A stretch of 64,000 nucleotides of DNA, taken from an uncultured Coriobacteriaceae bacterium (GTDB taxonomy: Bacteria > Actinomycetota > Coriobacteriia > Coriobacteriales > Eggerthellaceae). Positions 4,153-63,995 of this stretch are shown here, in pieces. The stretch spans positions 124,001 through 188,000 of the forward strand of contig CACXMZ010000002.1 of NCBI GenBank assembly GCA_902768975.1, read 5' to 3'. How positions within the stretch are numbered: the stretch's first letter is position 1; the number at the start of each line of letters is the position of its first letter. The position numbers and the translations under genes were made by a program. The notes beneath the pieces were generated by a model. The model was given only the letters and a program-made list of their open reading frames with translations, was not told where the DNA came from and did not search any database.

Positions 4153-4680
4153 ATGACAAAATTTGACGACATATATGAATTGGCTGCAGATAACTACGGC
4201 CTTATAACCTCCGCGCAAGCGCGCGCAATCGGCGTAACCAACAACGAGCTAGTGCAGTACGCTCAGCGGGGCAAAGTGGAGCGCGTCGGTCAAGGGCTCT
4301 ACAGGATCACACATTATATTCCGACACCCTACGATTCCTACGCAGAAGCAGTAGCCCTCGTCGGTCCAGGTGCGTATCTTTACGGCGAGTCGGTCATAGC
4401 CATGCATGAGTTGGCGCCCACGAATCCAAGTTGTATGCACGTAGCAACGCCAAACAGGGTTCGCAGGAAGCTGCCGTCCTACATGAAAGTTTTTCATATT
4501 CCAGAGGGCGGAAAGATAACCCTCTACGAAGGCATCCCGTCGCAGACTGTCGCAGATGCCATTTATTCGTGTCGCGGCAGGATTATGGACGAGCGTCTTC
4601 GCGACGCGACGCTTAAGGCGCGGGCAAAGGGATATCTGACGCGTGCAGAGGAGCAAGAGCTTTTAGAGGAGCTTTCATGA
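4153..4680 (+). CDS. AbiEi-type antitoxin/repressor
   Basis: This 175-residue protein has the AbiEi N-terminal winged helix (DNYGLITSAQARAIGVTNNE) followed by the basic RVGQGLYRI element typical of the family, then the C-terminal part that lines up with AbiEi family antitoxins. It is the antitoxin of a type IV abortive-infection pair: it represses its own operon and opposes the AbiEii nucleotidyltransferase. The stop overlaps the start of abiEii by 4 bp. The pair fills the cassette between the tRNA and the first tRNA 3'-end repeat, which implies arrival by site-specific integration. Confidence 0.85.
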   Translation: MTKFDDIYELAADNYGLITSAQARAIGVTNNELVQYAQRGKVERVGQGLYRITHYIPTPYDSYAEAVALVGPGAYLYGESVIAMHELAPTNPSCMHVATPNRVRRKLPSYMKVFHIPEGGKITLYEGIPSQTVADAIYSCRGRIMDERLRDATLKARAKGYLTRAEEQELLEELS

Positions 4681-47505: not shown

Positions 47506-49833
47506 ATGACCATTTTGAAATCATTTAGCGACCATCAAAACAATGAAGTGCAAAGTGATGTCGCGAAGCTCCAGGACGCGCTACAGGAAATGGATGCCCA
47601 CACCGCAGACCTAATTAATGAAGCCCTGAGGGACTTCAATATTGACGCTTCGGTGGTCGACTGGATTCATGGTCCTACGGTTACGCTTTTCAAGCTAGAC
47701 ATAGCACCGGGCGTACGCGTAAGCAAAATCGAAAACTTTACAGACGATCTTGCACGCACCCTTACAGCACCAAGCATCCGCATGCTGTGCCCTGTTCCTG
47801 GCACCAAATACGTTGGGCTTGAGGTTCCACATATCAAGGAATACAACCAGATACCGCTACTGCAAAATACGCTCGCTAACCGACCAGAGGGGCTCATGCA
47901 GATTCCTATCGGTATAGATGTGAATGGCGACACCGTATTCGACGACCTTACAGAAATGCCCCACCTTATTATTGGTGGCGGTCCTGGGTCTGGTACAGGC
48001 GTGTTCATTGAAGGTATGCTCTATGCGCTTCTCAGCCATAAAGAATCTGCAAATATCGAACTCATCCTCATCGACCCACTGCGTGTGAACTTTACTGTTT
48101 ACAAAGACATCCCGCATTTAATCGCTCCTGTTATTGTAAACCCAGAAGATGCAGCACGGGCACTATCGTGGGCAGCAAATGAAATGGAACGCCGCCTCAA
48201 GGCGCTTGCGTCAGCCGGCGTGCGCACTATAGAGCAATACAACAACTATGTTGTTGACGAGATGGTGGCAAAGGAAAACTCTGGTGAAGAAACAGATGCA
48301 GGCATTGACCGGCTAACCCATATAGTTATTGCTATCAATGATTTAGCCAATCTTATGTTGTCGCAGGGCCCAGCGAGTCTTATAGAGCAGTCAATCGCAC
48401 GCATTGCCCTACTGGGGAAGGCAGCAGGCATTCATCTGATACTGTCAACAGCAAAACTGGGGACAAGCGTGCTCACGGGGCCTATGAAGGCAAACATCCC
48501 ACATCGAATTGCATTTGGAACAACGGGCAGTCTCGAAAGCCGTGTCATCCTTGACACCGCGGGCGCAGAAAAACTAGTTGGTAACGGAGACTTGCTTTAT
48601 AGCAAACCTGATTATCCCAAGCCTGTCCGCTTGCAAGGCTTCTTTATATCTCGCAATGAAACAAAACAGCTAACGGGCGCCCTGCGGGAAGAACATGGAC
48701 CGCGCTATAGGGACGAAATACTGCAAACTGAAATCCCTGAAATAAAACCCTTAAAAAATTTTGAGAAAGAACCTGAACCAGAAGAAGACCCTCTTCTTTG
48801 GCATGCTGCAAAGCTGGTTGTAGATACTGGATTAGGATCTTACGCTAATATCCAACGACATTTGCAGGTGGGCTACTCACGTGCCAATCGCATAATAGAT
48901 TCATTGGAAAAACTAGGTGTAGTAGGCCCTCCTAATGAATCCCGACCGCGTGATGTGCTTATAGATGCAACTGAACTTGATGAGCTCCGCACGAAAATGC
49001 TATTTGAGCAAGTAAGTCCAAAAGCCTCCGCCACAGAAAAGCAGACGTTTAAAAATTTCATTGTGGGTCCATCAAATTATATGGCTTATGCTATGGCGCG
49101 CTGTGTTGCAGAAAACCCTGGCGAACCATTTTTAAATCCTGTGTTTATCTACGGTCCTCCGTCGTGCGGCAAAACACATCTTTTGTGCGCAATCAAAAAC
49201 TACGTGGCTACACATAAGCCCGACCAAAAGGTTATCTCCTTAGATGCAAATGACTTCGTAGCAGACTATTGCAACGCAGCTTTGAGGGGCGGAGACAATA
49301 AAAAGGAATTTAAAGAAAAGTATTTGCAAGCTAGCATCCTTATGATTAGCAATGTTCAGATGCTCCAAGGAATGAATGAGACCCTTTCGATACTCTTTCA
49401 AATATTGCGTATCCTGGTTGACCAAGGATGCCAGGTGGTATTTACGGCAGATAGGCGGCCATGGCATATAGATATCGATAAACGCTACACGGCGCGATTC
49501 GTCTCGGGCATTATTTGCCCAATTCAACCACCAGAGTATGAGGTACGTCTTAGTTTTGCTAACCAGTACATAAAAGTTCTTAGGCATAAGCTAGCCGAAG
49601 TTTCTAAGCATGACTGGCATATTCAGCCAGAAGTTTGCCACGCTATAGCGGGTCGTCTAACAAATATGGCGTACATAAAAGGGGCGCTCGGTATGTTTGC
49701 CTTCCAAGCAGCAAAAAGGGGAGATAGCTACCTTACGATGCCCTACGTTAATAAGGTGCTTAGCGAATTCCCTCAAGCTCATGCCACTTCTGAACCATCC
49801 AACAATACTGCTAGAGGTACGTCATGGACATAA
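47506..49833 (+). CDS. FtsK motor-gamma region fused to DnaA AAA+ domain
   Basis: This 775-residue protein joins two families. Residues 40-400 follow the FtsK/SpoIIIE core: VVDWIHGPTVTLFKLDIAPG, MPHLIIGGGPGSGTGVFIEG, ANIPHRIAFGTTGSLESRVI, GNGDLLYSKPDYPKPVRLQG. The P-loop lysine is a threonine (GPGSGTG), and Walker B is AINDLAN instead of VIDELAD. Residues 428-495 match FtsK gamma (GSYANIQRHLQVGYSRANRI). Residues 510-765 match DnaA domain III: FKNFIVGPSNYMAYAMARCV, FIYGPPSCGKTHLL with an intact P-loop, but Walker B LMISNVQ instead of LLIDDIQ and no sensor 2 arginine. AGGAGGAG precedes the ATG. By motif it may bind but not turn over ATP. Confidence 0.75.
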   Translation: MTILKSFSDHQNNEVQSDVAKLQDALQEMDAHTADLINEALRDFNIDASVVDWIHGPTVTLFKLDIAPGVRVSKIENFTDDLARTLTAPSIRMLCPVPGTKYVGLEVPHIKEYNQIPLLQNTLANRPEGLMQIPIGIDVNGDTVFDDLTEMPHLIIGGGPGSGTGVFIEGMLYALLSHKESANIELILIDPLRVNFTVYKDIPHLIAPVIVNPEDAARALSWAANEMERRLKALASAGVRTIEQYNNYVVDEMVAKENSGEETDAGIDRLTHIVIAINDLANLMLSQGPASLIEQSIARIALLGKAAGIHLILSTAKLGTSVLTGPMKANIPHRIAFGTTGSLESRVILDTAGAEKLVGNGDLLYSKPDYPKPVRLQGFFISRNETKQLTGALREEHGPRYRDEILQTEIPEIKPLKNFEKEPEPEEDPLLWHAAKLVVDTGLGSYANIQRHLQVGYSRANRIIDSLEKLGVVGPPNESRPRDVLIDATELDELRTKMLFEQVSPKASATEKQTFKNFIVGPSNYMAYAMARCVAENPGEPFLNPVFIYGPPSCGKTHLLCAIKNYVATHKPDQKVISLDANDFVADYCNAALRGGDNKKEFKEKYLQASILMISNVQMLQGMNETLSILFQILRILVDQGCQVVFTADRRPWHIDIDKRYTARFVSGIICPIQPPEYEVRLSFANQYIKVLRHKLAEVSKHDWHIQPEVCHAIAGRLTNMAYIKGALGMFAFQAAKRGDSYLTMPYVNKVLSEFPQAHATSEPSNNTARGTSWT

Positions 49834-51077
49834 GCAAAGACAACATTGACCAAGTCTGGGAGCAAGTAGCTACGCGGCTAAAAAGCGAGTATCCCAAAGA
49901 TGCCTTGTCTTTTGATTCAATCTTTGCCCATGTCAGTCCTGTTTACAACAACGACGGTGCTGTCACTCTAGTCGCTGACACACTATCGTTCAAAAAATGG
50001 ATCGAACTGAACTATCTTGCTTCTATTAGCGACGTCTTCTGCAGCGTATGCAACGATTACGTAAAGGTTAGGGTGTCTAGCATTCCAAGCTGCGAAACCA
50101 TTCCTATAGACCGAGGCCTTGAATTTGCCTTTAGTGAAATCGTAGTAAGGACGCAGCCAAGCCCGAAGACCCAGACAGTCGGCATTTCCACCAGTCTTAA
50201 AGACCTTGACGAATCAACAGGGGGCCTGCGGAACGGACAGCTGGCTGTTCTTTCTGGCAGGGCATACACACAAGAGTTCGCCATTAACCTTGCCATTACC
50301 GCAGCAAAAAATGGAGTACGCGTTTACTACTTCAGTATGAGCCGCAGCCTCCCAATAATTGCGCAGTCCTTTTTATACCTAGAAGCAGGCATTGCGAGTT
50401 ACAGAATGGCGTCTGGCCATTTGCGCGAAGTCGACTGGCAATATCTTGCCGACACAACAGGCTATCTTTCCAAGCTCGATATCAACTTCATTGATTCCCC
50501 TTGTGTTACCTGCGAAGAAATCGAAAACACAGTAGCGCTTGCACGCAAAGGGAAAAAGGACGTTCTTGTTGTAGTTGACCAGATTGACCAAATGGACGCC
50601 CCAGACGAGCTGCGCCAAAAAGACCGCAAACAACAAATTGCGGGAATCGTGCAGGGGCTTCAAAAGGCCGCTGTGTCGATGGACGTTCCCGTACTTGCAT
50701 TGTCCAGCATTGCGCGCGCCCATCAATATGAAAGCCAGCGCCCCAGGATTGAAGACATGGAATATGCAGACCCTATTCGCTTATATGCCGACGTAGTTAT
50801 GCTTCTTGATATGTGCCTGGGTTCTATTGAAGAAGAAATGGATAGCAGACCCGCCATAGACGAAGCTTGGGTCTACCTTGACAAAAACAGGAACCAAGCC
50901 CATGGGTGGATTGGGCACAGATTAGGCTTCGATAGAGCTATCGGAACCTTCTATGACTACGTCTCTAGAGACAAATCGGCGAACCCACGGGAAGAAGAGC
51001 AATGGGAAGACATCTCCTACGAAGAGCTCAAAAAGATGTTTAAGGAAGAAAATAGCACGAGCAAGAAAAACAAATAG
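49824..51077 (+). CDS. DnaA domain I fused to DnaB-like RecA-fold domain
   Basis: This 417-residue protein starts with a DnaA domain I: IDQVWEQVATRLKSEYPKDA, TLVADTLSFKKWIELNYLAS, ISDVFCSVCNDYVKV. Residues 115-395 follow the DnaB C-terminal domain: VGISTSLKDLDESTGGLRNG, GVRVYYFSMSRSLPIIAQSF, VLVVVDQIDQMDAPDELRQK. The P-loop is SGRAYTQEF in place of ARPSMGKT. In bacteria, DnaA domain I binds DnaB, DiaA and other partners; here the two are one chain. The tail EDISYEELKKMFKEENSTSK nearly repeats that of 42728. It overlaps the FtsK-DnaA gene by 10 bp. Confidence 0.7.
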   Translation: MDISKDNIDQVWEQVATRLKSEYPKDALSFDSIFAHVSPVYNNDGAVTLVADTLSFKKWIELNYLASISDVFCSVCNDYVKVRVSSIPSCETIPIDRGLEFAFSEIVVRTQPSPKTQTVGISTSLKDLDESTGGLRNGQLAVLSGRAYTQEFAINLAITAAKNGVRVYYFSMSRSLPIIAQSFLYLEAGIASYRMASGHLREVDWQYLADTTGYLSKLDINFIDSPCVTCEEIENTVALARKGKKDVLVVVDQIDQMDAPDELRQKDRKQQIAGIVQGLQKAAVSMDVPVLALSSIARAHQYESQRPRIEDMEYADPIRLYADVVMLLDMCLGSIEEEMDSRPAIDEAWVYLDKNRNQAHGWIGHRLGFDRAIGTFYDYVSRDKSANPREEEQWEDISYEELKKMFKEENSTSKKNK

Positions 51078-51088
51078 GCAGCTGTACG

Positions 51089-51736
51089 CTAGATCATAAA
51101 ACGGTATAGAGGCAGCGTCAGGAATGTTGCTACAACCAGTATGACTACCGTGACAAGCATTGCAGTATTGATACGCTTGTTCATGCGAACCTTGCCAAGC
51201 GATTCTTCGACACTGTACCCAAGGGCAAAGCCGGTAAGCTTGCTCTTTTCTTCACAATCCCTATTGAGCAATCCATCCCGGCCATCTACCACTATTACTT
51301 CTGGTTGATCGACCTGCATTGCTTTTCCTTCTGTGGCAGAAATCTTAGAGAGCAAAATATCGGGTATGCAGTCCTCGGGGTCGCCTGCTGAAACAAAAGC
51401 GATAATGCGTGCCGATTCGTGCAAGTCAATATACGTTTCAATCTCGCGTAGGATCCGAGCGTCTTCTTTTGCATCGGGCGAGCAAATTACGACAAGAGTG
51501 CTTGCCTGTGCAAGTGCTTCGACAATGTTTTCAGACAGAGGGTCCGAACCTGAATACTCATATTCGCTCGGGAAGCATGGGTTCTTTGGAACGCCAGTAA
51601 AAAGACTTTTCCTGTCTGCCAACAAAGACGGGCGGGAGCAGTTTTCAATAAGAAACTGAACGCGGCGAGCAGCACTCGCGTCTTGCGGCAAGTGTTTGTA
51701 GCTAATAAATGCTGCGTATTTGTAGTCTGTTGTCAT
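51089..51736 (-). CDS. TIR-domain protein with C-terminal membrane anchor
   Basis: This 215-residue protein has a TIR domain (residues 1-170): YKYAAFISYKHLPQDASAAR, SDPLSENIVEALAQASTLVV, then ICSPDAKEDARILREIETYI with the glutamate at the catalytic place of NAD-cleaving TIRs. Residues 190-212 form one transmembrane helix (TAMLVTVVILVVATFLTLPL). A membrane-held TIR is typical of an effector or sensor that depletes NAD on infection. It is the last gene of a minus-strand group with the CoiA-like gene, and converges on the WYL locus with 11 bp between stops. Confidence 0.75.
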   Translation of the reverse strand: MTTDYKYAAFISYKHLPQDASAARRVQFLIENCSRPSLLADRKSLFTGVPKNPCFPSEYEYSGSDPLSENIVEALAQASTLVVICSPDAKEDARILREIETYIDLHESARIIAFVSAGDPEDCIPDILLSKISATEGKAMQVDQPEVIVVDGRDGLLNRDCEEKSKLTGFALGYSVEESLGKVRMNKRINTAMLVTVVILVVATFLTLPLYRFMI

Positions 51737-53603: not shown

Positions 53604-53817
53604 GACAACCTCCTTTGACGATTCGACGAGATCACTTATCTCCTTCTGGTTATATAACTGGACAAAAAGGACGTTTTTAAGCGATAGGTAATAAAAAATT
53701 TTGATTTTTTTATTCTTGAAACGATAAGATATGATTCTGTAGCACTAAAGAGCCCGTCAGGGCGCTTGTAACAACAGTACGAAGCAATAGAACAGCTTTA
53801 GAATAAGGTCGTTGCTC

Positions 53818-54429
53818 ATGAAAAAGTTTTTTCTGGTTACATCGCATCTTCCTGAAGATAAGCTTGTCGAGCATTCTTATGAACCTGTCGACAATGCAAA
53901 TCTTGTTTATGGAAATGTACACTTTCCTATAGTACCCCTCATTAATGCTCATGTTAAAAATGGTGATGCTATTAAAGTGGTGACGGTTACCTACGACACT
54001 CCTAATTGCCATAGGAATCTAAAATTGCTAGAAAGCGAAATCAGTCAGGTTTGCGCAGAAAACAATGCGACATATGAGCTCGAATCAATCGAAGTACCCT
54101 TCGATGACAGCATTAAAGCTATCCTCAATGTTTATCAGCAACTCATTACTCGCGTTGAAGACGGCGATGATCTTTACGCTGACATTACATATGGTTCTAA
54201 GCCCATGCCAATTGTGCTTACCATGGCACTCCAATACGCATATCGTATAAAAGAAAACGTGTCTATTGAGTGCGTAATCTATGGGCAAATTAGCCATCAT
54301 AAGGAAACCCAAGATGCGAAAATCTATGATGTCACGGCGCTTGTACAACTCGACGAGATAGTAAACCTCATGGCTGAAGGGCGTGTTGCTGACCCAGCGA
54401 CTGTTATAAATCTATTGCTTGGTGATTAG
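53818..54429 (+). CDS. CARF-like sensor domain protein (TM1812/Csx2-like)
   Basis: This 203-residue protein resembles the CARF domains of the TM1812/Csx2 group: an N-terminal MKKFFLVTSHLPEDKLVEHS strand and loop, and the key block DLYADITYGSKPMPIVLTMA then LQYAYRIKENVSIECVIYGQ. In TM1812-like proteins the corresponding block is DITHGFRSLP. CARF domains bind cyclic oligoadenylates; some also cut them. No effector domain is attached and no CRISPR array or type III genes are in the window. It is followed 8 bp on by a sigma-like gene. ATG 53818 follows AAGG. Confidence 0.6.
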   Translation: MKKFFLVTSHLPEDKLVEHSYEPVDNANLVYGNVHFPIVPLINAHVKNGDAIKVVTVTYDTPNCHRNLKLLESEISQVCAENNATYELESIEVPFDDSIKAILNVYQQLITRVEDGDDLYADITYGSKPMPIVLTMALQYAYRIKENVSIECVIYGQISHHKETQDAKIYDVTALVQLDEIVNLMAEGRVADPATVINLLLGD

Positions 54430-54437
54430 GGTTGGGT

Positions 54438-55598
54438 ATGGAGGCATTTCAACCTTCAAATAAAGACTCAAGAGGCAGGAGAAAGACCTCGCCTCACGCA
54501 GACGAGTTCTACTCGCGACATATTCACTCTTTGAAAGACCCTGCCTTAGAAGCTGAAATAAACAGAATTGCTGAACGATTAAGCGGCGCCCGATCCTCTC
54601 AATCTACCGCAAATGAGCTTGCCTTAAAGGAGAAGCTTTATGCTAAGTGTATGAAGTTCTTTTTCATTACGGGTCAAAATGTGAGCATCGATTTCGAAGA
54701 CGCATCGCATTATGGTAGTTACACCAAGATTGATGATATTTTTATTGAAGCTTTAAAAGAGACTATAGACCACTACGATGCCTCTGAGGGTAATGAGAGG
54801 TCATTCACGCACATGGTCCGTTTCTACTACGACAAAAGAAAAATCGACGCAGCATATTTGGCCGCTGAGGAAGACTCGGCATTTGGAGGAAGCGATACAG
54901 GTGCATTAATTAGTCTAAATGACCAAGTTAGAAGGAATGATGACGGCTCTACAACACTGGAAGACCTCGTACCATCCCCAGATAATGATGGAGACTATGG
55001 TGCTCCGCTTGATCAAACGTGGGTAGAAATAGATGAGCGGGAGATAGTAGGCGTAGCTGATGCGTTAGAAGAAACTGCTTTGATAGAAGATTTCTCTACC
55101 GATGACGCATCTGGGTACGCTGCAGATAGAGTCGATGAAAGAATACTTCTGCGATTGCTTACTATTATTACTGGCTTTCTCGGGAAATCTGGGCGAGAAG
55201 CAAATGAGACGAGAAAACTGTATACAAAAATGTTTTTCTCCGAGACAGTAACACGAACGACAAAGGTTAGGGTCGAGGGCGAACTTGCACCACTGCAGAA
55301 ACTTGAAAAGGCGCTATTTGCTTCGATTGAACTGCCTTTTCAGGACTCTTATACGGTACTGAGATGCAGGACTATTAAGCAGCTGTGGAAAACCGAATTC
55401 ATTGATGGGATAAGCGAAGTGGGTCGGCCGTTCAACGATATTGCGTCAAAAAGTGATTTGGCGCCGGGCTATAGCTGGACGTTGCCAGGGAAAGCGTATA
55501 TTTCATACCTCAATTCGATCGGACGCGCTGCTTCAGACGCACTGGTTTCTCAACAACGTGCTAGATATGATGAGTTGCTACGGGCTCTTAGGTCCTAA
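54438..55598 (+). CDS. Divergent sigma-factor-like protein
   Basis: This 386-residue protein has a region reminiscent of sigma-70 region 2 and linker: IDDIFIEALKETIDHYDASE, GNERSFTHMVRFYYDKRKID, then LISLNDQVRRNDDGSTTLED, like the SLD...GxxxLED element of sigma factors. The C-terminal 100 residues (FNDIASKSDLAPGYSWTLPG, KAYISYLNSIGRAASDALVS) may be a degenerate DNA-binding region. It may redirect RNA polymerase or mimic a sigma factor. The assignment rests on pattern only. It is the second gene of a three-gene group with the CARF-like gene. Confidence 0.45.
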   Translation: MEAFQPSNKDSRGRRKTSPHADEFYSRHIHSLKDPALEAEINRIAERLSGARSSQSTANELALKEKLYAKCMKFFFITGQNVSIDFEDASHYGSYTKIDDIFIEALKETIDHYDASEGNERSFTHMVRFYYDKRKIDAAYLAAEEDSAFGGSDTGALISLNDQVRRNDDGSTTLEDLVPSPDNDGDYGAPLDQTWVEIDEREIVGVADALEETALIEDFSTDDASGYAADRVDERILLRLLTIITGFLGKSGREANETRKLYTKMFFSETVTRTTKVRVEGELAPLQKLEKALFASIELPFQDSYTVLRCRTIKQLWKTEFIDGISEVGRPFNDIASKSDLAPGYSWTLPGKAYISYLNSIGRAASDALVSQQRARYDELLRALRS

Positions 55599-55727: not shown

Positions 55728-56213
55728 ATGAATAAAGAAGAACTTATCAGCGTTGCGTCAGATGTTGTTTGTGATCTCGAGAGTGCGGCTTCAGGAATTC
55801 AAGATGCAATCTGGGATCTAGAATCAATCGAATACGAAATAGACACAGTTGAAGAAGATGACGACGATTTCTCCGAAGAGATAGCAGATTCGCAAAGGGC
55901 TGCCAATACCCTTGATAGCGTAGCATCTGGACTCGGAAATGTGGTGTCATCAGTTGAAAATGCAATAACTGCGCTATGCACAGCCGAGCAATCGTTCCTG
56001 CCGCTCGACTCAGCCAACATTGGCATTTTCCATGGACGATTGATTAACCCTGCAGCACGTCATGCACTTAACGCTTCGCTAAGAATATGTGAGATGGAAA
56101 TCAGATTAGGCGAATACGAATCCGCATTAAAGACGTTAGAACGTGCAGAGATTAGCTTCAAACATGTAGTTGAAGAAATGCGGAGTGTGGTGTCTTCGGG
56201 CATGGCGGAGTAG
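55728..56213 (+). CDS. Acidic helical protein of unknown family
   Basis: This 161-residue, strongly acidic, all-helical protein (ESAASGIQDAIWDLESIEYE, IDTVEEDDDDFSEEIADSQR, then ALNASLRICEMEIRLGEYES) has a C-terminal half like one TPR-type helix pair. No catalytic motif. GAAGAGG lies before the ATG, and GTATAAT at 55655-55661 is a possible -10 box, so it may have its own promoter. Its place between the CARF/sigma pair and ssp genes suggests an accessory role. Confidence 0.5.
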   Translation: MNKEELISVASDVVCDLESAASGIQDAIWDLESIEYEIDTVEEDDDDFSEEIADSQRAANTLDSVASGLGNVVSSVENAITALCTAEQSFLPLDSANIGIFHGRLINPAARHALNASLRICEMEIRLGEYESALKTLERAEISFKHVVEEMRSVVSSGMAE

Positions 56214-56471
56214 GGCAATTATAGGTGTGGCTATCGTCTATTTTTCTAGGCTCTCAATTGGTTTGCCAACGGAATAATTGACAAGGCCTTAAGGCGAAAG
56301 CACTAATCTCAACTTTTAACAAAGCAGCCTAAGTGTTGACGCAATGTGGTAAATACTCGCCATAAAATAGTTTTAATAGAGTACATGAAGCATTTGCATA
56401 GTTGTTTTGAGAAGCGAAAAAAATATAGCCGATATATTCCGTTTATGCGCTACATACATAAGCTGGGTAGC

Positions 56472-56499
56472 TTGATATGACTGAAATAATTGCTATACT
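56472..56499 (+). promoter_or_regulatory. Promoter of the ssp operon
   Basis: TTGATA (56472-56477) and TATACT (56494-56499) are 16 bp apart, and TGC before the -10 makes it extended. Transcription would begin near 56506 and leave a leader of about 110 bases before sspD. The rest of the 404-bp gap (56214-56617) is A+T-rich and holds no gene I can see. Confidence 0.6.
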
Positions 56500-56561
56500 T
56501 GGGATTCTGGTTAACCACATCCAATGTCTCTAAAGCTTCTATTCAATCTATTTGATACAAT

Positions 56562-56624
56562 AATACAAAGTTCTGGAAGTCAACATCCAATGTTTCAAGG
56601 AAGCGAATTATTGAACTTTGTATT
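56562..56624 (+). promoter_or_regulatory. Inverted repeat enclosing the sspD start
   Basis: AATACAAAGTTC (56562-56573) and GAACTTTGTATT (56613-56624) are 12-bp perfect arms. The TTG start codon of sspD (56618) lies in the right arm and the RBS AAGGAAG in the loop. ACATCCAATGT also occurs twice nearby (56517, 56584). If the RNA folds so, the start codon is closed. Confidence 0.55.
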
Positions 56625-58336
56625 GCACGAAATGTAATCGAGAAACGGACAGTACGATATGTCCCGAATGCGGCGGGGAAACAACAGACGCTGCCCCTCA
56701 CGCTGTATATTGGTGTGACACTTGCAATATTCCGCTCATTAGCACTCCTGGAAAAACAAAGATAACATGCCCTGCTTGCGGTGAAGAGGCACGCTACCTT
56801 TGCGCAGATCTGCGCCCGGTCTTTCCCGAAGAACGCCTCTTGTTTGAAATAATGACGGATAGGCCTCTTTGCTACTTACATGATTCCGTGTGGGCGGTAA
56901 GCAGTAGATATTATGTTAACGGTAAACCGCACAATGTCTCCGTTGCTGAAATAACTGCTTTGAATCCGCAGGACGTAAGGAGCAAGCTTAAAGCTTACTC
57001 CTCGCAAAACAGCGACACCGACTTTCTCTGCTATATCAATGCGTTTGTTAAGGCAAATACTCCTCATTTAAACGGTCTAATAAGTGAGGCTTGTAGCTTC
57101 ATAATCGAAGCGTCTAGAGGGTATTCGGAAGAGAATATTGTTGTTTCTTTTTCAGGCGGTAAAGACTCGACCGTTACTGCAGACTTAGCTGTCCGAGCGT
57201 TGAGCAACCCTTACCTCGTACACATATTTGGAGATACAACGCTTGAATTTCCAAGCACTACCCAATATGCAAAACGATTTAGGGAAAGTCATCCACTTGC
57301 AATTTTTAAAACAGCGCGTAACAACGAACAGTCTTTTTACGATATGGCAGATGAAATTGGTCCTCCGTCAAGGGTAATGAGATGGTGCTGCTCCATGTTT
57401 AAAACAGGGCCTATTTCAAGAGCATTTAAAAGTCTGTACGGCGATCAACCCATCCTGACCTTCTACGGTATTAGGAGGGGCGAATCTATTTCGCGCAGTA
57501 AGTACAATCGGATTGAAGACAATGCAGAGGCGGTAAAAATACAGCGACAAAGAGTTGCTTCACCTATTTTCAACTGGGGTGATATTGATGTATGGCTCTA
57601 TATCCTGGCGGAAGGCATAGACTTCAATGATGCCTATAGGCTTGGCTACGAGCGCGTGGGCTGCTGGTGTTGCCCAAATAACAATCCCCGTGCCCAATTT
57701 CTTTCGCAGATATATATGCCAGAAGAGTCAGAGAAGTGGCACAACTTTCTTCTTGAGTTTGCAAAACGGATAGGCAAACCTGATCCCGAAGTATACGTTG
57801 ATACAGGAAAGTGGAAAGCACGTCAGGGCGGCAATGGCGTAGCAGCCGCTCGCAGCGTACAAATAGAAGCGAGCCACTGTGCAACCGAAGATAACGCAAT
57901 GATCTTTTCTCTCGAACGACCTTTCTCGGACGAGCTTGTTGGCCTATTTACGCCCATTGGAGACCATGCTCCTGGCCTGGGACGCACACTTCTTGAAGAA
58001 AGCGTCTTTATCGATAGAAAAACTAACGAGCCTCTACTGGCCATTATGCCTTTTACCCAGCCAGGCTATGAATATGCTGCAAAAGTGCGAATACTCAAAG
58101 AAGGCGACTCGGAGACCCTTCTGCGACAGGCGAGATACCAGGTGTTGAAATATAACGCCTGTCGCCAATGCTTGAAGTGTGAGTCCCTCTGTCGCTTTGG
58201 AGCGATTTCGATTTCGCCCGACGGATATCGCATAGACCCGTTGAAGTGTACCAAGTGCAAACAGTGCGTCACGGACAAGTACCTAGAAGGTGGCTGTTTG
58301 ATGAGAAAGTATTTGAAGACGAAGGACGAGCAGTAA
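56618..58336 (+). CDS. sspD: SspD-like PAPS-reductase-family ATP pyrophosphatase
   Basis: This 572-residue protein has N-terminal zinc ribbons (YCTKCNRETDSTICPECGGE, then WCDTCN and CPACGEE), a PAPS-reductase-type PP-loop domain with SFSGGKDSTVTADLAVRAL (about residue 178), RWCCSMFKTGPI and GCWCCPNNN. The C-terminal ferredoxin domain has CRQCLKCESLCRFG and CTKCKQC. SspD activates the DNA phosphate path for sulfur insertion with SspA in single-strand phosphorothioation. The extra ribbon and ferredoxin ends add metal sites beyond the core. TTG 56618 is the only in-frame start. sspB follows without a gap. Confidence 0.8.
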   Translation: MYCTKCNRETDSTICPECGGETTDAAPHAVYWCDTCNIPLISTPGKTKITCPACGEEARYLCADLRPVFPEERLLFEIMTDRPLCYLHDSVWAVSSRYYVNGKPHNVSVAEITALNPQDVRSKLKAYSSQNSDTDFLCYINAFVKANTPHLNGLISEACSFIIEASRGYSEENIVVSFSGGKDSTVTADLAVRALSNPYLVHIFGDTTLEFPSTTQYAKRFRESHPLAIFKTARNNEQSFYDMADEIGPPSRVMRWCCSMFKTGPISRAFKSLYGDQPILTFYGIRRGESISRSKYNRIEDNAEAVKIQRQRVASPIFNWGDIDVWLYILAEGIDFNDAYRLGYERVGCWCCPNNNPRAQFLSQIYMPEESEKWHNFLLEFAKRIGKPDPEVYVDTGKWKARQGGNGVAAARSVQIEASHCATEDNAMIFSLERPFSDELVGLFTPIGDHAPGLGRTLLEESVFIDRKTNEPLLAIMPFTQPGYEYAAKVRILKEGDSETLLRQARYQVLKYNACRQCLKCESLCRFGAISISPDGYRIDPLKCTKCKQCVTDKYLEGGCLMRKYLKTKDEQ

Positions 58337-59239
58337 ATGAAGATGAAATTCAAAGCACACCAGTCTTTCTTCATTAGAAAGGGCTGGTTAAGCAAGGGGC
58401 TCAAGGGAGTTCGAAGCAACAGCGCACTTCTGATGCCAAGCAACAACAAGGAAGCAATGGATGAGCTGGGTCTAGGCGCCAACCAGGTTGTAGCGCTGCG
58501 GTACTGGCTTCAGGCAACTGGCCTTATTGAATTAGGATACAGAAACCACGAGCACAGCATTACAGAGCTCGGTCATCTGATTCTTGATAACGATCCATTT
58601 ATTGAAGAGCTAGGCACGTTATGGGCTCTGCACTGCAACCTTGTTTCGGCACAAGAAGAGGCGGCTTCCTGGTATTTCCTTTTCAATGAATTTGGAATGA
58701 ATGTCTTTGGCAAGGACGACTTCACGCGCGCGATTTCGAAATACATACTCATCAATAACGACAAGGAGGATATAGCCCTTGCATCCCTCGACTCAGACTT
58801 TAGCTGCATTCTGAATACCTATATTCCACATAGCAAACTCGGGAGTAGTTCAATCTCGCCCGAAAACGTCATCGACTGCCCGCTTGGAGAACTAGGACTC
58901 ATCACTGTGGAAAGCAAGTCTGCAAAGACATACCGGAAGAAGACAGCTAATCCCAGCATGCTTCCCGGTCTGCTAGTTCTGTACTCGATAGCTTCAACCT
59001 TTGACGCAGCATCTCGGGAAACACCAGAAATACGATTCGAGATTCTCTTAGATGGGGCTGGGATGCCTGGACGCGTGTTCAACCTTGACTCTGTTGCGCT
59101 TTTATCAAAGCTGTATGAACTCGAAAACGAAGGCAGGCTTCGTGTAAGCAGGACAGCGGGAATTGACGTAGTGCGTCTTACGAACTCCTCCCTCTGCAAA
59201 GAAGACTGCCTGAGCGACTATTACAAGATGATGGGTTAG
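58337..59239 (+). CDS. sspB: SspB-like DUF4007 protein
   Basis: This 300-residue protein matches DUF4007, the SspB family: HQSFFIRKGWLSKGLKGVRS, MDELGLGANQVVALRYWLQA, then ITELGHLILDNDPFIEELGT and LWALHCNLV. SspB is described as the DNA-nicking member that opens one strand at the modification site. ATG 58337 directly follows the sspD stop. The gene ends 8 bp before sspC. Confidence 0.85.
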   Translation: MKMKFKAHQSFFIRKGWLSKGLKGVRSNSALLMPSNNKEAMDELGLGANQVVALRYWLQATGLIELGYRNHEHSITELGHLILDNDPFIEELGTLWALHCNLVSAQEEAASWYFLFNEFGMNVFGKDDFTRAISKYILINNDKEDIALASLDSDFSCILNTYIPHSKLGSSSISPENVIDCPLGELGLITVESKSAKTYRKKTANPSMLPGLLVLYSIASTFDAASRETPEIRFEILLDGAGMPGRVFNLDSVALLSKLYELENEGRLRVSRTAGIDVVRLTNSSLCKEDCLSDYYKMMG

Positions 59240-59247
59240 GAGGACGT

Positions 59248-62200
59248 ATGGATTTCAAGAAAATGATTCTTCCTAACAAGGATTTCCAAACATCAGTAAA
59301 CATTGAGTTTGATTTTGGCTCAAAAAACAAGGTTGAACAGCTTATCCCGACAGACTCTGTTTGCGTGTATCTCGAAGAGCTATTGCGCGACGTAATAACA
59401 TCCTCTAATCAGAGGGCAAAATTGCTTGTTGGACCATATGGAAAAGGAAAGTCGCATGTGGTCCTTGCTGCACTAACTGCAATGTGGGCAAAAGATCCAG
59501 CACCATTTAAAAAGATTATTAGTGCCTACAAACAACATGGTCTTGGATTCGGTGACACTTTAGAAAAGTTCGTTTCAGAAGGAAGCCGGCTACTTCCCGT
59601 AGTCATATCTGGAAGCACCGCTGATTTAAGGCATGCGCTTCTCTCTTCGCTGCGAAAATCATTGTCAAATACAGGGCTGATGGAATGTATGCCACAGACA
59701 AACTATGACGGCGCTCTTAACGTTCTAACTCGTTGGCAGTCCGATTATCCTGACACTATAAGGCGTTTTGAAACTCTTACTGGTCACAGCGTTTCTTCGA
59801 TCATCTCTCGCCTTAAAAACATGGATACCAACGCGTACGAGTTATTCGTAGAGTTTTATCCTGAGTTAACCTCTGGCAGCTCGTTCGACGTTGTTGATGG
59901 TGCCGAAGTACTGGATGTTTATGACACCGTACTAAACCGTCTTCGAGAAGCAGGCATCAGTGGCATCTACATCGTCTATGACGAGTTCAGTAAATACCTA
60001 GAGACTAGCATTGACCGTGCGACCGTTGAGGATACCAAACTGCTTCAGGATATTGCTGAGGCGTGCAATCGAAGCTCCGATAGTAAGCAGCTGCACCTAC
60101 TCCTCATCAGCCACAAAAGCATCTCCAACTACATCGACTCCAGTCTTCCCAAAGACAAAGTAGATGGATGGCGGGGCGTTTCTGGGCGCTTCCGCGAAAT
60201 CGAGATGCATGACGACGAGGGCCAGTATTTCGAGCTACTAAGTAACGCAATCATCAAGGACAAAAAACTATGGGGTTCTTGGCTTGATGCCAATGCGGGA
60301 GCCAATGCCGCTCTGCTTGAATTAATAGGAAAGCGATATGTGAAGCAGGGTCTTTTTAAGGAAGAGTACTACGAGATGGTGACCATGGGATGCTTCCCCC
60401 TTCATCCGCTCACGACATATATTCTTGCACGCATGTCAGAGAAAGTAGCCCAGAACGAACGCACCCTCTTTACCTTCATCTGCTCAAACGAAGAAAACTC
60501 TTTTATCAACGCTCTAGAGAGTGCCGGGAGATTCGTTTCGCCAGATTATGTATACAGTTATTTCGAGCCACTGTTGCGAAGAGAGTTCTATACCAGTCCC
60601 CTTCATCGCATCTATGAGCTTGCAAAAACGGCTATTCAAAAGGTCGAGGCTGGAAGCCTGGAAGAAAGAATGATCAAAACCATAGCGGCGATTGACGTTG
60701 TGGCACAATACGACAAGATTGCGCCCACGAAGGAAGTCATAACAGAACTGTATTCAGACTGCGGTTTTGATACGGACGGCATTAAAGCGGCACTAGACAA
60801 CCTTATTGCAAGCGACTCGATAGTTTACTTGCGACGGAGCAACGCATTCTTAAAACTAAAAGAAACATCTGGAGTGCATATAGATCGTGAGGTTTCGGAC
60901 AGGGCCGAGTCCTTGCGAAGCCAGTACGAATGCGTCGAACTGCTTAATACGATGATTGAAGGAAAGGCGCTTTACCCCTCTCGCTACAACGAAGAGAGGG
61001 GCATGGTCAGGTTCTTTAACTGTAAGTTTATCGGGTTAGACGAAATGCAAGATGGAGGAGTCCTGACCGAAAAGCACACACAAAACAGCGACGGCGCGGT
61101 TTTAGCGCTCCATCCAAACACGCCAAATGACCTGGAAGAATTGAAGCGATGCGCAAAGGGCGTACTTTCAGAATTACCAATGACTGTTGCCATTTGTCCC
61201 AAAAAGTACGTTGATGTCACGGCTGCAGTTTTTCTGCTCCAAGCCGCAAAGGAACTAAAGGCAGAAGCCGGCGAAGATGAAATCCTTGCCGAAGAATACG
61301 AAATTGTGGTCGATGACTACACAGAAATCGTCGAAGACTATATCGCAGGATTCTTTCAGCCAGAACTGGGACGTTCGTACTATTACATTGGGGGAACGAG
61401 GCGCAATTCGCTCACTAGAAAGAGGAAGCTAGCGGAAGAGCTTTCGGTTCTCTGCGAAGAAACCTATGGCAATACACCGCGAATCACCAATGAGGCTTTA
61501 AACAAGAATGAGCTAACAGGGACAGCCTTTAGCAGCAGAACCAAAATATTAAAATCTCTCTGCGGAAAGCATCTGGAACCAAATTTTGGTTTTATTGGCA
61601 ACGGCCAAGAAACATCAATGGCGCGAAGCGCGTTCGAAAAGACAGGAATTATTGCCAATTTTGAAAAACCAGAAGACTCTAGCAGAGCGGCATACACTGA
61701 GGGCATAGAAAAAATGCTTCAGGCCATCCGGGGCTTTATCGAGGGTGCTCAAGAAACGCCTTTCTCCGAAATATACAACTTGCTAACTGGTCCACAATTG
61801 AAACTTGGCTTACGACGGGGACCCATTCCCTTGTACCTTGCATATGTGATGCGTGACTACAGGGATGAAATCGTCATTACACATGATGGCGAGGAGCGTC
61901 CCTTGAGCGAGTCCTTGCTAGATGACATCGCGCGAAATCCTGCCGAGTATTACCTTACAAGGCTAAACTGGACTCCGCAGATGACGAACTACATACGCAA
62001 TCTGGCCTCGCTATTCAGTTGCGATCCAGATGCTGCAACTAGAAACGAGGTCGCAGACGCTATAAGGCTCTGGTATGTTGAGCTACCGCAGGTTACGCGC
62101 AACAGCAGAATCAACCATGCTAGCAGTAAAGGGAATGCAAACATCTCAAAGTCACGCACCGCTCTTTTCAACGCTGTGCGCTCCGTAGGGGACGATACGA

Positions 62201-62838
62201 GCGTTTTCCTATTTGAAAAGCTGCCGGCAGCATTTGGAGTGAAGGCTGATTCGCCGAAGCTTGTCGAGCTCATCAGGAAGGAAAAAAAGGAATGCGATGG
62301 TTTTCTGTCGCAAACCTTAGATAGGGTTGCTGAAGACCTTACAACTCTTTTCGATTGTGCGGCCCATTCAGATGCTTCCCTGGGTTCCACATTACGCGAC
62401 TGGGTAGACCGCAATCCAGCAACAACAACTCACGTGTTCTCTGGTGTTCGCAACCAGATACTAAATGCAATCAAAGATGCAAATGGTGATGACCGGACAA
62501 CCGTGAATAGAATAGCGAAGGCCGCAACCTCATTGCGTATCGATGATTGGAACGATGCTCGCTTCGATGACTTTTTTGACATCATGCGTGTAATGAAATC
62601 AGAAGTTGAAGGTGTAAACAGTCGCGAGGAGAATGAAACGGTCGAACAAACCGTAAGCCTTGTTTATGCTGTTGGCAATGGGACGATAAGGAAGAAAACA
62701 TTCGATGTTGTCGAGTGTAGCGAGCGATCACGTCTCTTGAAAAACAGCATCTTTGCTTGTTTAGACGAGATGGGGGGCGCATTGCAGCCTGATGAGAAAA
62801 GACAGATTGTCTTTGAGGTTCTTGAGGAGCTGTGCTGA
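59248..62838 (+). CDS. sspC: SspC-like ATPase
   Basis: This 1196-residue P-loop protein has Walker A LLVGPYGKGKSHVVLAAL (about residues 57-74) and a likely Walker B in GIYIVYDEFSKYLETSIDRA near residue 245. A sensor-like LLLISHKSISNYI follows. The long C-terminal part has no recognised domain. SspC is the ATPase of the SspABCD complex and is thought to move or load the modification proteins on DNA. AGGAGG precedes the ATG. Its stop overlaps the ATG of sspA (TGATG). Confidence 0.85.
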   Translation: MDFKKMILPNKDFQTSVNIEFDFGSKNKVEQLIPTDSVCVYLEELLRDVITSSNQRAKLLVGPYGKGKSHVVLAALTAMWAKDPAPFKKIISAYKQHGLGFGDTLEKFVSEGSRLLPVVISGSTADLRHALLSSLRKSLSNTGLMECMPQTNYDGALNVLTRWQSDYPDTIRRFETLTGHSVSSIISRLKNMDTNAYELFVEFYPELTSGSSFDVVDGAEVLDVYDTVLNRLREAGISGIYIVYDEFSKYLETSIDRATVEDTKLLQDIAEACNRSSDSKQLHLLLISHKSISNYIDSSLPKDKVDGWRGVSGRFREIEMHDDEGQYFELLSNAIIKDKKLWGSWLDANAGANAALLELIGKRYVKQGLFKEEYYEMVTMGCFPLHPLTTYILARMSEKVAQNERTLFTFICSNEENSFINALESAGRFVSPDYVYSYFEPLLRREFYTSPLHRIYELAKTAIQKVEAGSLEERMIKTIAAIDVVAQYDKIAPTKEVITELYSDCGFDTDGIKAALDNLIASDSIVYLRRSNAFLKLKETSGVHIDREVSDRAESLRSQYECVELLNTMIEGKALYPSRYNEERGMVRFFNCKFIGLDEMQDGGVLTEKHTQNSDGAVLALHPNTPNDLEELKRCAKGVLSELPMTVAICPKKYVDVTAAVFLLQAAKELKAEAGEDEILAEEYEIVVDDYTEIVEDYIAGFFQPELGRSYYYIGGTRRNSLTRKRKLAEELSVLCEETYGNTPRITNEALNKNELTGTAFSSRTKILKSLCGKHLEPNFGFIGNGQETSMARSAFEKTGIIANFEKPEDSSRAAYTEGIEKMLQAIRGFIEGAQETPFSEIYNLLTGPQLKLGLRRGPIPLYLAYVMRDYRDEIVITHDGEERPLSESLLDDIARNPAEYYLTRLNWTPQMTNYIRNLASLFSCDPDAATRNEVADAIRLWYVELPQVTRNSRINHASSKGNANISKSRTALFNAVRSVGDDTSVFLFEKLPAAFGVKADSPKLVELIRKEKKECDGFLSQTLDRVAEDLTTLFDCAAHSDASLGSTLRDWVDRNPATTTHVFSGVRNQILNAIKDANGDDRTTVNRIAKAATSLRIDDWNDARFDDFFDIMRVMKSEVEGVNSREENETVEQTVSLVYAVGNGTIRKKTFDVVECSERSRLLKNSIFACLDEMGGALQPDEKRQIVFEVLEELC

Positions 62839-63995
62839 TGAGTTCACATGTTGCATATTTCGACAACGCTGCTACAACATTCCCAAAACCCAATGCGGTA
62901 TATGATTTTGCAGACTCCTTCTACAGGAACAGTGGGGGAAACATCGGCAGAGGCGGCAATGCGCTTGCGGTAGCGGCTGGGGAGGTCGCAAGCCAGGCAA
63001 AAGATAACCTGCGCGTTCTTTACAATTGCCCGACACATGAGGTTGTTTTCACATCCTCGGCTACCGAAGCGCTAAACCGTATTCTCTTTGGTCTAGGACT
63101 CAAAGACGGTGATCATGTATTCCTTTCGCCTTTTGAGCACAATGCAGTAACAAGGCCGCTGAACCATCTGGCTAAAAACACGCGTGTTCAACTGCATGTT
63201 TTGCCTTTTGATAGGAATGTCTTGCTGCCAGATATGGATAACATCAAGACATATTTTGAAAAGAATCCACCAAAGCTTCTGGTACTTACGCATGCTAGCA
63301 ATGTGTGTGGCGCGATTCTGCCTGTGGACGACATATGTAAACTGGCAAAGCACTATGGCGCAAAAACAGTTGTCGACATGAGTCAGACCGCAGGCCTCCT
63401 TCATTTGGATCTGGTTTCGCCGACGATAGATTTTGCAGTATTTGCCGGGCACAAGACACTTTATAGTCCATTTGGCATAGGAGGATTCATTTGTCGAAAA
63501 GGTACGCGCTTGAAGCCTGTCTTCTTTGGTGGGAACGGGATTGATTCAATTAATCAAGACCTTCCCGACAATATCGTTCAAATGGAAGAAATTGGGAGCC
63601 AGAACACCTATGCCGTTGCTGGACTCAAGGCATCGACTGATTGGTTGCTTGCGCACGGCATGGACAAGATTCGCGAAGACGAAAAGGTGGCTTTTGCAAA
63701 GCTTCTCGACTTGCTGGAAGCCTATAGTGCGTTAATAGTAGGGAAAGGAATGGAATGCGAGAGAACAGGGGTTGTCTCTGCGCTCTTTGAAGGTTATACG
63801 CCAGACGAAATAGAAGTGATTCTAGGTCGGTTTGGTGTATCAGTTCGTTCTGGTCTGCATTGTGCGCCTTATGCCCATGACTTTCTCGGCACTTTGCCAG
63901 CAGGTACTGTGCGATTTAGTATTGGCGCCTTAACTAATGAAAATGATTTCACACAATTAGAAAAAGCGCTTACACTTATAAAAGACAGTTTATAG
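62838..63995 (+). CDS. sspA: SspA/DndA-like cysteine desulfurase
   Basis: This 385-residue class V aminotransferase has VAYFDNAATTFPKPNAVYDF at the start, the PLP lysine in FAGHKTLYSPFGIGGF, and the catalytic cysteine in SGLHCAPYAHDFLGTLPAG. It takes sulfur from cysteine and hands it to SspD for DNA phosphorothioation. ATG 62838 overlaps the sspC stop. It is the last gene in the window; only 5 bases follow. In most described operons sspA comes first; here the order is D-B-C-A. Confidence 0.85.
   Translation: MSSHVAYFDNAATTFPKPNAVYDFADSFYRNSGGNIGRGGNALAVAAGEVASQAKDNLRVLYNCPTHEVVFTSSATEALNRILFGLGLKDGDHVFLSPFEHNAVTRPLNHLAKNTRVQLHVLPFDRNVLLPDMDNIKTYFEKNPPKLLVLTHASNVCGAILPVDDICKLAKHYGAKTVVDMSQTAGLLHLDLVSPTIDFAVFAGHKTLYSPFGIGGFICRKGTRLKPVFFGGNGIDSINQDLPDNIVQMEEIGSQNTYAVAGLKASTDWLLAHGMDKIREDEKVAFAKLLDLLEAYSALIVGKGMECERTGVVSALFEGYTPDEIEVILGRFGVSVRSGLHCAPYAHDFLGTLPAGTVRFSIGALTNENDFTQLEKALTLIKDSL

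Follow-up and report, generated by a model that had tools for sequence, protein, structure and literature searches.

The leader of the ssp-type operon in the 64-kb stretch of DNA analysed here (the window) holds two copies of a short TGG-N10-CCA dyad, each lying behind a putative extended -10 promoter, and transcription of the operon is probably controlled from these sites by a dimeric repressor acting on two tandem promoter-operator modules. A dimeric DNA-binding protein would bind the dyad at the start point and block initiation; it would act at O2, whose distance from the gene is the one conserved in the relatives, and be reinforced at O1. As there are two such modules (P1-O1 and P2-O2) at a distance of 66 bp, repression could be the joint work of two bound dimers. 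Our data also suggest that the 12-bp inverted repeat over the start of sspD, the subject of an earlier note on this DNA, is a lineage-specific by-feature, in which the spacer from P2 to O2 serves as the left arm and the beginning of the gene as the right one. The elements of the leader are as follows.

56472..56499, plus strand: putative promoter P1, TTGATA, 16-nt spacer and TATACT preceded by TGC (extended -10); start expected near 56506
56508..56526, plus strand: operator-like dyad O1, TGG-N10-CCA, TGGTTAACCACATCCAATG (direct repeat D1)
56553..56561, plus strand: putative promoter P2, extended -10 TGATACAAT; start expected near 56568
56562..56573, plus strand: left arm of the 12-bp inverted repeat, AATACAAAGTTC, which is the exact spacer between the -10 of P2 and O2
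56574..56592, plus strand: operator-like dyad O2, TGG-N10-CCA, TGGAAGTCAACATCCAATG, 44 nt before the start codon
56597..56603, plus strand: weak Shine-Dalgarno-like AAGGAAG between the arms, about 15 nt before the TTG
56613..56624, plus strand: right arm of the 12-bp inverted repeat, GAACTTTGTATT, which holds the TTG start

Judged by homology, the genes that follow form an ssp-type phosphorothioation operon, in which SspA, SspB, SspC and SspD homologues stand together.

56618..58336, plus strand: sspD-like gene (BrxP/SspD) of the PAPS-reductase family, with N-terminal Cys motifs and a C-terminal ferredoxin-like region (Pfam PAPS_reduct 1.3e-32, weak Fer4)
58337..59239, plus strand: sspB (DUF4007; PADLOC SspB 1.2e-58)
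59248..62838, plus strand: sspC (PADLOC SspC 2.1e-112)
62832..63995, plus strand: sspA-like cysteine desulfurase (PADLOC SspA 1.6e-34)

In PADLOC the sspD product scores better as BrxP (1.3e-77) than as SspD (1.9e-11), and the six downstream genes scanned in the own genome gave no hit to PglZ or BrxL of type 4 BREX. The genes after sspA vary (L100:8019-12454 compared with L101 and L103): a helicase, a GHKL ATPase and a PLD protein are found in the own genome, PbeA- and PbeC-like proteins in genome G096, and a PLD-helicase with an AAA ATPase in G299. Upstream of the operon (53812-55598) lie a CARF-domain protein (PADLOC CARF2, 9.6e-69) and a 388-aa protein without Pfam or PADLOC match. A small protein encoded near the defence genes on the minus strand (51089-51736) shows weak similarity to a ThsB-like TIR domain (Pfam 2.3e-4, barely past the cut-off), and 49824-51077 encodes a DnaA N-terminal domain fused to a DnaB-type C-terminal domain.

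The putative promoter P1 was found in a sigma-70 scan with 10 of 12 consensus matches plus the TG, a match that is weak alone, as two promoter-like sites were found in the region against a mean of 2.0 in shuffled sequences. Its extended -10 ends 8 nt before O1, as in the relatives. P2 was missed by the scan and shows no good -35 by eye; it consists of the motif TGnTAnnnT, 12 nt before O2, and its position relative to the gene resembles that of the relatives' promoters. The dyad pattern TGGNNNNNNACATCCAATG, which was written from the two window copies after the leader of L007 had been read and before that of L087 was read, matches exactly at two places in the 1.89-Mb own genome, both of them here (56508 and 56574). 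Both window dyads are imperfect. When up to two mismatches were allowed, 21 genome hits were obtained, while the reversed control gave 14; a looser form of the dyad was rarer than its reversed control in three of five genomes and slightly commoner in two, so that the strict form alone is informative. A wider regulon of the dyad was rejected on the same loose pattern, which stayed near the reversed-control level in the five genomes. Four stretches were chosen from the exact hits among the matches listed for G299 and G323. Three lie inside open frames, one of these near a 3' end with the next gene some 90 nt further on, and the fourth lies about 34 nt upstream of a gene identified by eye as tryptophanyl-tRNA-synthetase-like; no regulator was recognised by eye beside any of the four.

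The comparison covers 85 sspD leaders. Besides the window's own there are 84, which come from the 80 best of 173 relatives and from L085, L086, L087 and L090, and so form a sample. L088, L089 and L091 are excluded, since they repeat L006 and L007 or are a C-terminal piece; L001-L004 and L092-L099 are own-genome hits. L109 is apparently the same contig as L005, and L110 (58%) came later and stands outside the counts. The five nearest relatives of sspD encode proteins with 74-77% identity; going by their titles, an uncultured Coriobacteriaceae bacterium, an uncultured Olsenella and an Atopobiaceae bacterium from sheep jejunum are among them, the others being of the same family or order. This points to the Coriobacteriia as the source of the window too. 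Relatives at E 1e-60 or better occur in 2 of 138 genomes of the own family and in 4 of 140 of the second family in the order. The viral contigs gave one relative, at 57%, and the plasmids none at 60% or above, and neither therefore offers a nearer leader to compare.

All six clade leaders, the window included, hold a TGG-N9/10-CCA dyad within -90 to 0, against 0.125 expected from mononucleotide shuffles, a figure that carries some freedom of search because the dyad was first noticed by eye. The match in L087 does not carry that freedom: TGGNNNNNNACATCCAATG is exact in both L007 and L087, and L087 was a fresh test that agreed letter for letter. The dyads start at -44 in the window (O2), -44 in L087, -47 in L007, -44 in L085, -42 in L005 and -41 in L006; the leaders of L005 and L006 are alike and come from one genus, so the six represent five lineages. 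A TGnTAnnnT extended -10 lies 6-12 nt upstream of the dyad in all seven cases, O1 included, while the background of the motif is 100 in 1800 positions. The spacer between P2 and O2 is 12 nt compared to 6-9 nt elsewhere, and the window further differs from its clade relatives in having a second, upstream dyad (O1) with an extended -10 of its own (P1). Among the 79 other leaders the TGG dyad occurs in five, against 0.8 expected. A 15-codon frame that starts at the ATG of O2 (56590-56637) and overlaps the start of sspD was spotted by eye, and a similar one occurs in L087.

The dyad could also form an RNA hairpin at the 5' end of the mRNA and serve its stability or processing, instead of being a DNA operator, a reading that we regard as improbable. 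In the six-sequence alignment, two-sided changes that keep the pairing occur in 3 of 10 predicted dyad-stem pairs (4 of 16 overall), and the most palindromic form of the dyad, that of L085, has arms of 17 bp, both of which would suit an RNA stem. However, a palindrome bound by a dimer covaries likewise, the consensus has a covariation term that is, at +0.47, slightly unfavourable, and several of the outer pairs fail to form in two of the six sequences. The palindrome of L085 (L085:3231-3268, in G096) is perfect over 38 bp, with a self-complementary centre of 4 nt, and spans the operator together with the last part of the -10.

The inverted repeat over the start of sspD is present as the earlier note had described it: its arms are complementary at 12 of 12 positions with 39 nt between them, the ribosome-binding site lies between the arms, and the right arm contains the TTG start (56618-56620). 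No start is possible between this TTG and an in-frame TGA at 56612-56614, and near homologues of SspD start at the same residue (M/V-Y-C). The TTG itself was taken in that note for a rare start, a description that does not fit this gene family, in which TTG opens 15 of the 85 genes and is common; ATG is used in 44, GTG in 23 and an unusual codon in three (ATT, AGT and CAT), and since these last are not usual starts, those three leaders may be misplaced. The note had named related operons lacking the repeat as a finding that would refute its reading, and here the comparison went against it: a perfect inverted repeat of at least 9 bp (loop up to 60, -120 to +20) touching the start codon was found in none of the 84 other leaders, the five nearest relatives included. 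The consensus fold of the six clade sequences is likewise without the 12-bp stem, and the repeat was rejected as a conserved leader structure.

By its place the repeat is unlikely, and yet it is one of several of its kind for a scan of 64 kb. When the 350-bp leader was shuffled 3000 times with its dinucleotides kept, any perfect inverted repeat of at least 12 bp with a loop of 3-60 arose in 9 of the 3000, and in none did such a repeat fall on the start codon. The window as a whole contains seven distinct repeats of the class of at least 12 bp (26 overlapping 12-mer hits), against 0 to 3 hits in each of 20 block shuffles (6 in total), and part of the surprise at this repeat is therefore due to where one looks. 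The same count gave, as a by-product, an inverted repeat at 1239-1321 that is perfect over at least 23 bp and has a loop of 37 nt. We give a little better than an even chance to the reading that the repeat is a product of chance in an AT-rich leader (GC 0.36 compared with 0.51 in the window) and has no function, a reading for which the other repeats in the window and its absence from the other leaders speak and against which the shuffles of the leader stand; it is compatible with operator control by the dyad, and the two estimates are not exclusive. That the 12-bp repeat is itself a DNA operator, with a protein on each arm and the arms joined across about 51 bp, is by our estimate very unlikely. 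The arms are perfectly identical over 12 bp, and their sequence has only one further copy in the own genome; on the other hand no such repeat occurs in the other leaders, the right arm overlaps the M-Y-C codons, and neither arm is a dyad by eye. The earlier note had allowed for a DNA operator at the repeat, and that thought survives in altered form: the best-supported element of the leader is indeed operator-like, but it is a different, smaller and conserved dyad which is present twice.

Hairpins that sequester the start codon of an mRNA are a general class of control, and the leader resembles them in that the start would be paired in the stem on the longer message, that from P1. On the predicted P1 transcript (from about 56506) the opening of the start codon costs 7.05-7.33 kcal/mol depending on the folded length, and none of the 84 other leaders is as high as 7.05 kcal/mol. 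The predicted P2 transcript (from about 56568) would lose half of the left arm, and its opening cost is 1.9-4.5 kcal/mol, again by folded length; as the left arm fills the spacer between the -10 of P2 and O2, the full stem is possible only on mRNA from P1. These values could be taken to indicate a promoter-selective gate on translation, in which the P1 mRNA folds the stem and locks the TTG, the P2 mRNA, starting in the left arm, is more translatable, and a switch of promoter is at the same time a switch of sspD translation. In line with such a gate, the window ranks first of the 85 for the lock on the start codon when a common 112-nt leader is used, and the shuffles mentioned above never placed such a repeat on the start. 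We nevertheless consider the gate rather doubtful. The cost of opening the whole initiation region with the 112-nt leader is equalled or exceeded by 10 of the 84 others, and with a 50-nt leader the start is still among the more tightly locked (3 of the 84 equal or exceed the window), so that the contrast between the two messages, whose start points are predicted, is modest. The fold of 56540-56660 is ordinary (z = -1.06, with 22 of 200 shuffles at least as stable), and the repeat is missing from the 84 other leaders. The leader also departs from known hairpins of this class in the want of conservation among its relatives, in the position of the Shine-Dalgarno sequence between the arms instead of inside the 12-bp stem, and in having no Rfam match in 56200-56750 at E 1, where a known riboswitch or thermometer was looked for.

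The Shine-Dalgarno sequence of sspD (-5.2 kcal/mol) is weak and 15 nt from the start, with weaker ones in 5 of the 84 other leaders, and sspD is therefore probably poorly initiated irrespective of the stem. Of the proposal that the closed stem keeps sspD low, what holds is that the stem is predicted to be closed on the putative P1 transcript and that the Shine-Dalgarno sequence is weak; against it stands that the repeat was not found in the relatives. At most, the 12-bp repeat also damps translation of the longer P1 message.

Operator control by the dyads has its nearest tested parallel in the dnd system of Salmonella enterica Cerro 87, where DndB represses the dnd operon from two TACG-N10-CGTA boxes (PMC4507180). 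In both cases two short dyads, each spaced by 10 bp, lie in the promoter region of a phosphorothioation operon, here O1 and O2. In contrast, the half-site is TGG(A)/(T)CCA here and TACG/CGTA there, and the repressor in Salmonella is the operon's own DndB, while members of the DndB family (PF14072, E 0.01) were found in none of the five clade genomes, with two of 14 control genomes positive. The absence of DndB and the different half-site suggest that the present system may work like the dnd system without being a member of it, and DndB was rejected as the regulator. A second comparison is offered by sspD operons of Firmicutes (such as L011, L074 and L078), where the sspD is homologous and its leader likewise holds a short dyad; there the dyad is GTCC-N8-GGAC and a small XRE-like gene lies just upstream, neither of which is seen in the six clade leaders. 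In its general form, GTCC-N6-10-GGAC, this promoter dyad occurs in 8 of the 79 other sspD leaders against 0.1 expected, a count inflated by the near-identical leaders of L010, L016 and L032; all eight are Firmicutes by title, and none of the six clade leaders has it. A small XRE-like gene upstream of sspD is present at no fewer than 23 of the 85 loci (at least 23, as the regular expression used gives a lower bound). The XRE-like gene and the GTCC dyad in these other relatives are likely a cis-encoded regulator and its operator.

No member of an HTH family was found in the 10 window genes scanned, nor in 10 downstream genes of three clade loci. A DUF4007 protein has been likened to BrxA and has one HTH and two wHTH modules (PMC12839542), and a triple wHTH module is reported for SspB (PMC10853773); given these modules, self-control of the operon by SspB is conceivable. 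In genome G436, which is 89% complete, sspB is matched by no more than a 37-residue piece next to sspD, and the leader of L005, apparently on the same contig, keeps the dyad. A dyad kept where sspB is reduced is, at this completeness, weak evidence against SspB as the binder. In L005, after position 4195, sspD is followed by an unrelated-looking frame of 1042 aa, the picture of a decayed ssp operon.

It may also be asked whether the TGG/CCA core is the Ssp machinery's own target. The Ssp modification motif is C(PS)CA in Vibrio and in gut metagenome data (PMC8092258, PMC11931770), and it coincides with the invariant core of the dyad. The operator would then be a pair of sites for modification, one on each strand, through which the operon would sense whether it is itself modified: binding by an Ssp DNA-binding protein (SspB, perhaps) or by some other protein would differ between the unmodified and the modified dyad and so set the expression of sspD. 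As three bases are little, and as the GTCC dyads of the Firmicute relatives are without CCA in their arms, we assign this idea a very low probability.

The control of the dnd modification operon has already been studied. Titles and abstract openings in the literature searched gave no description of an ssp operator. The conserved dyad before the ssp operon of this clade now offers a defined target for experiments, and suggests that mutagenesis should not begin with the striking 12-bp repeat. Repression of the operon by a dimeric protein at the TGG-N10-CCA dyads would represent a known type of control that is met here in a new setting.
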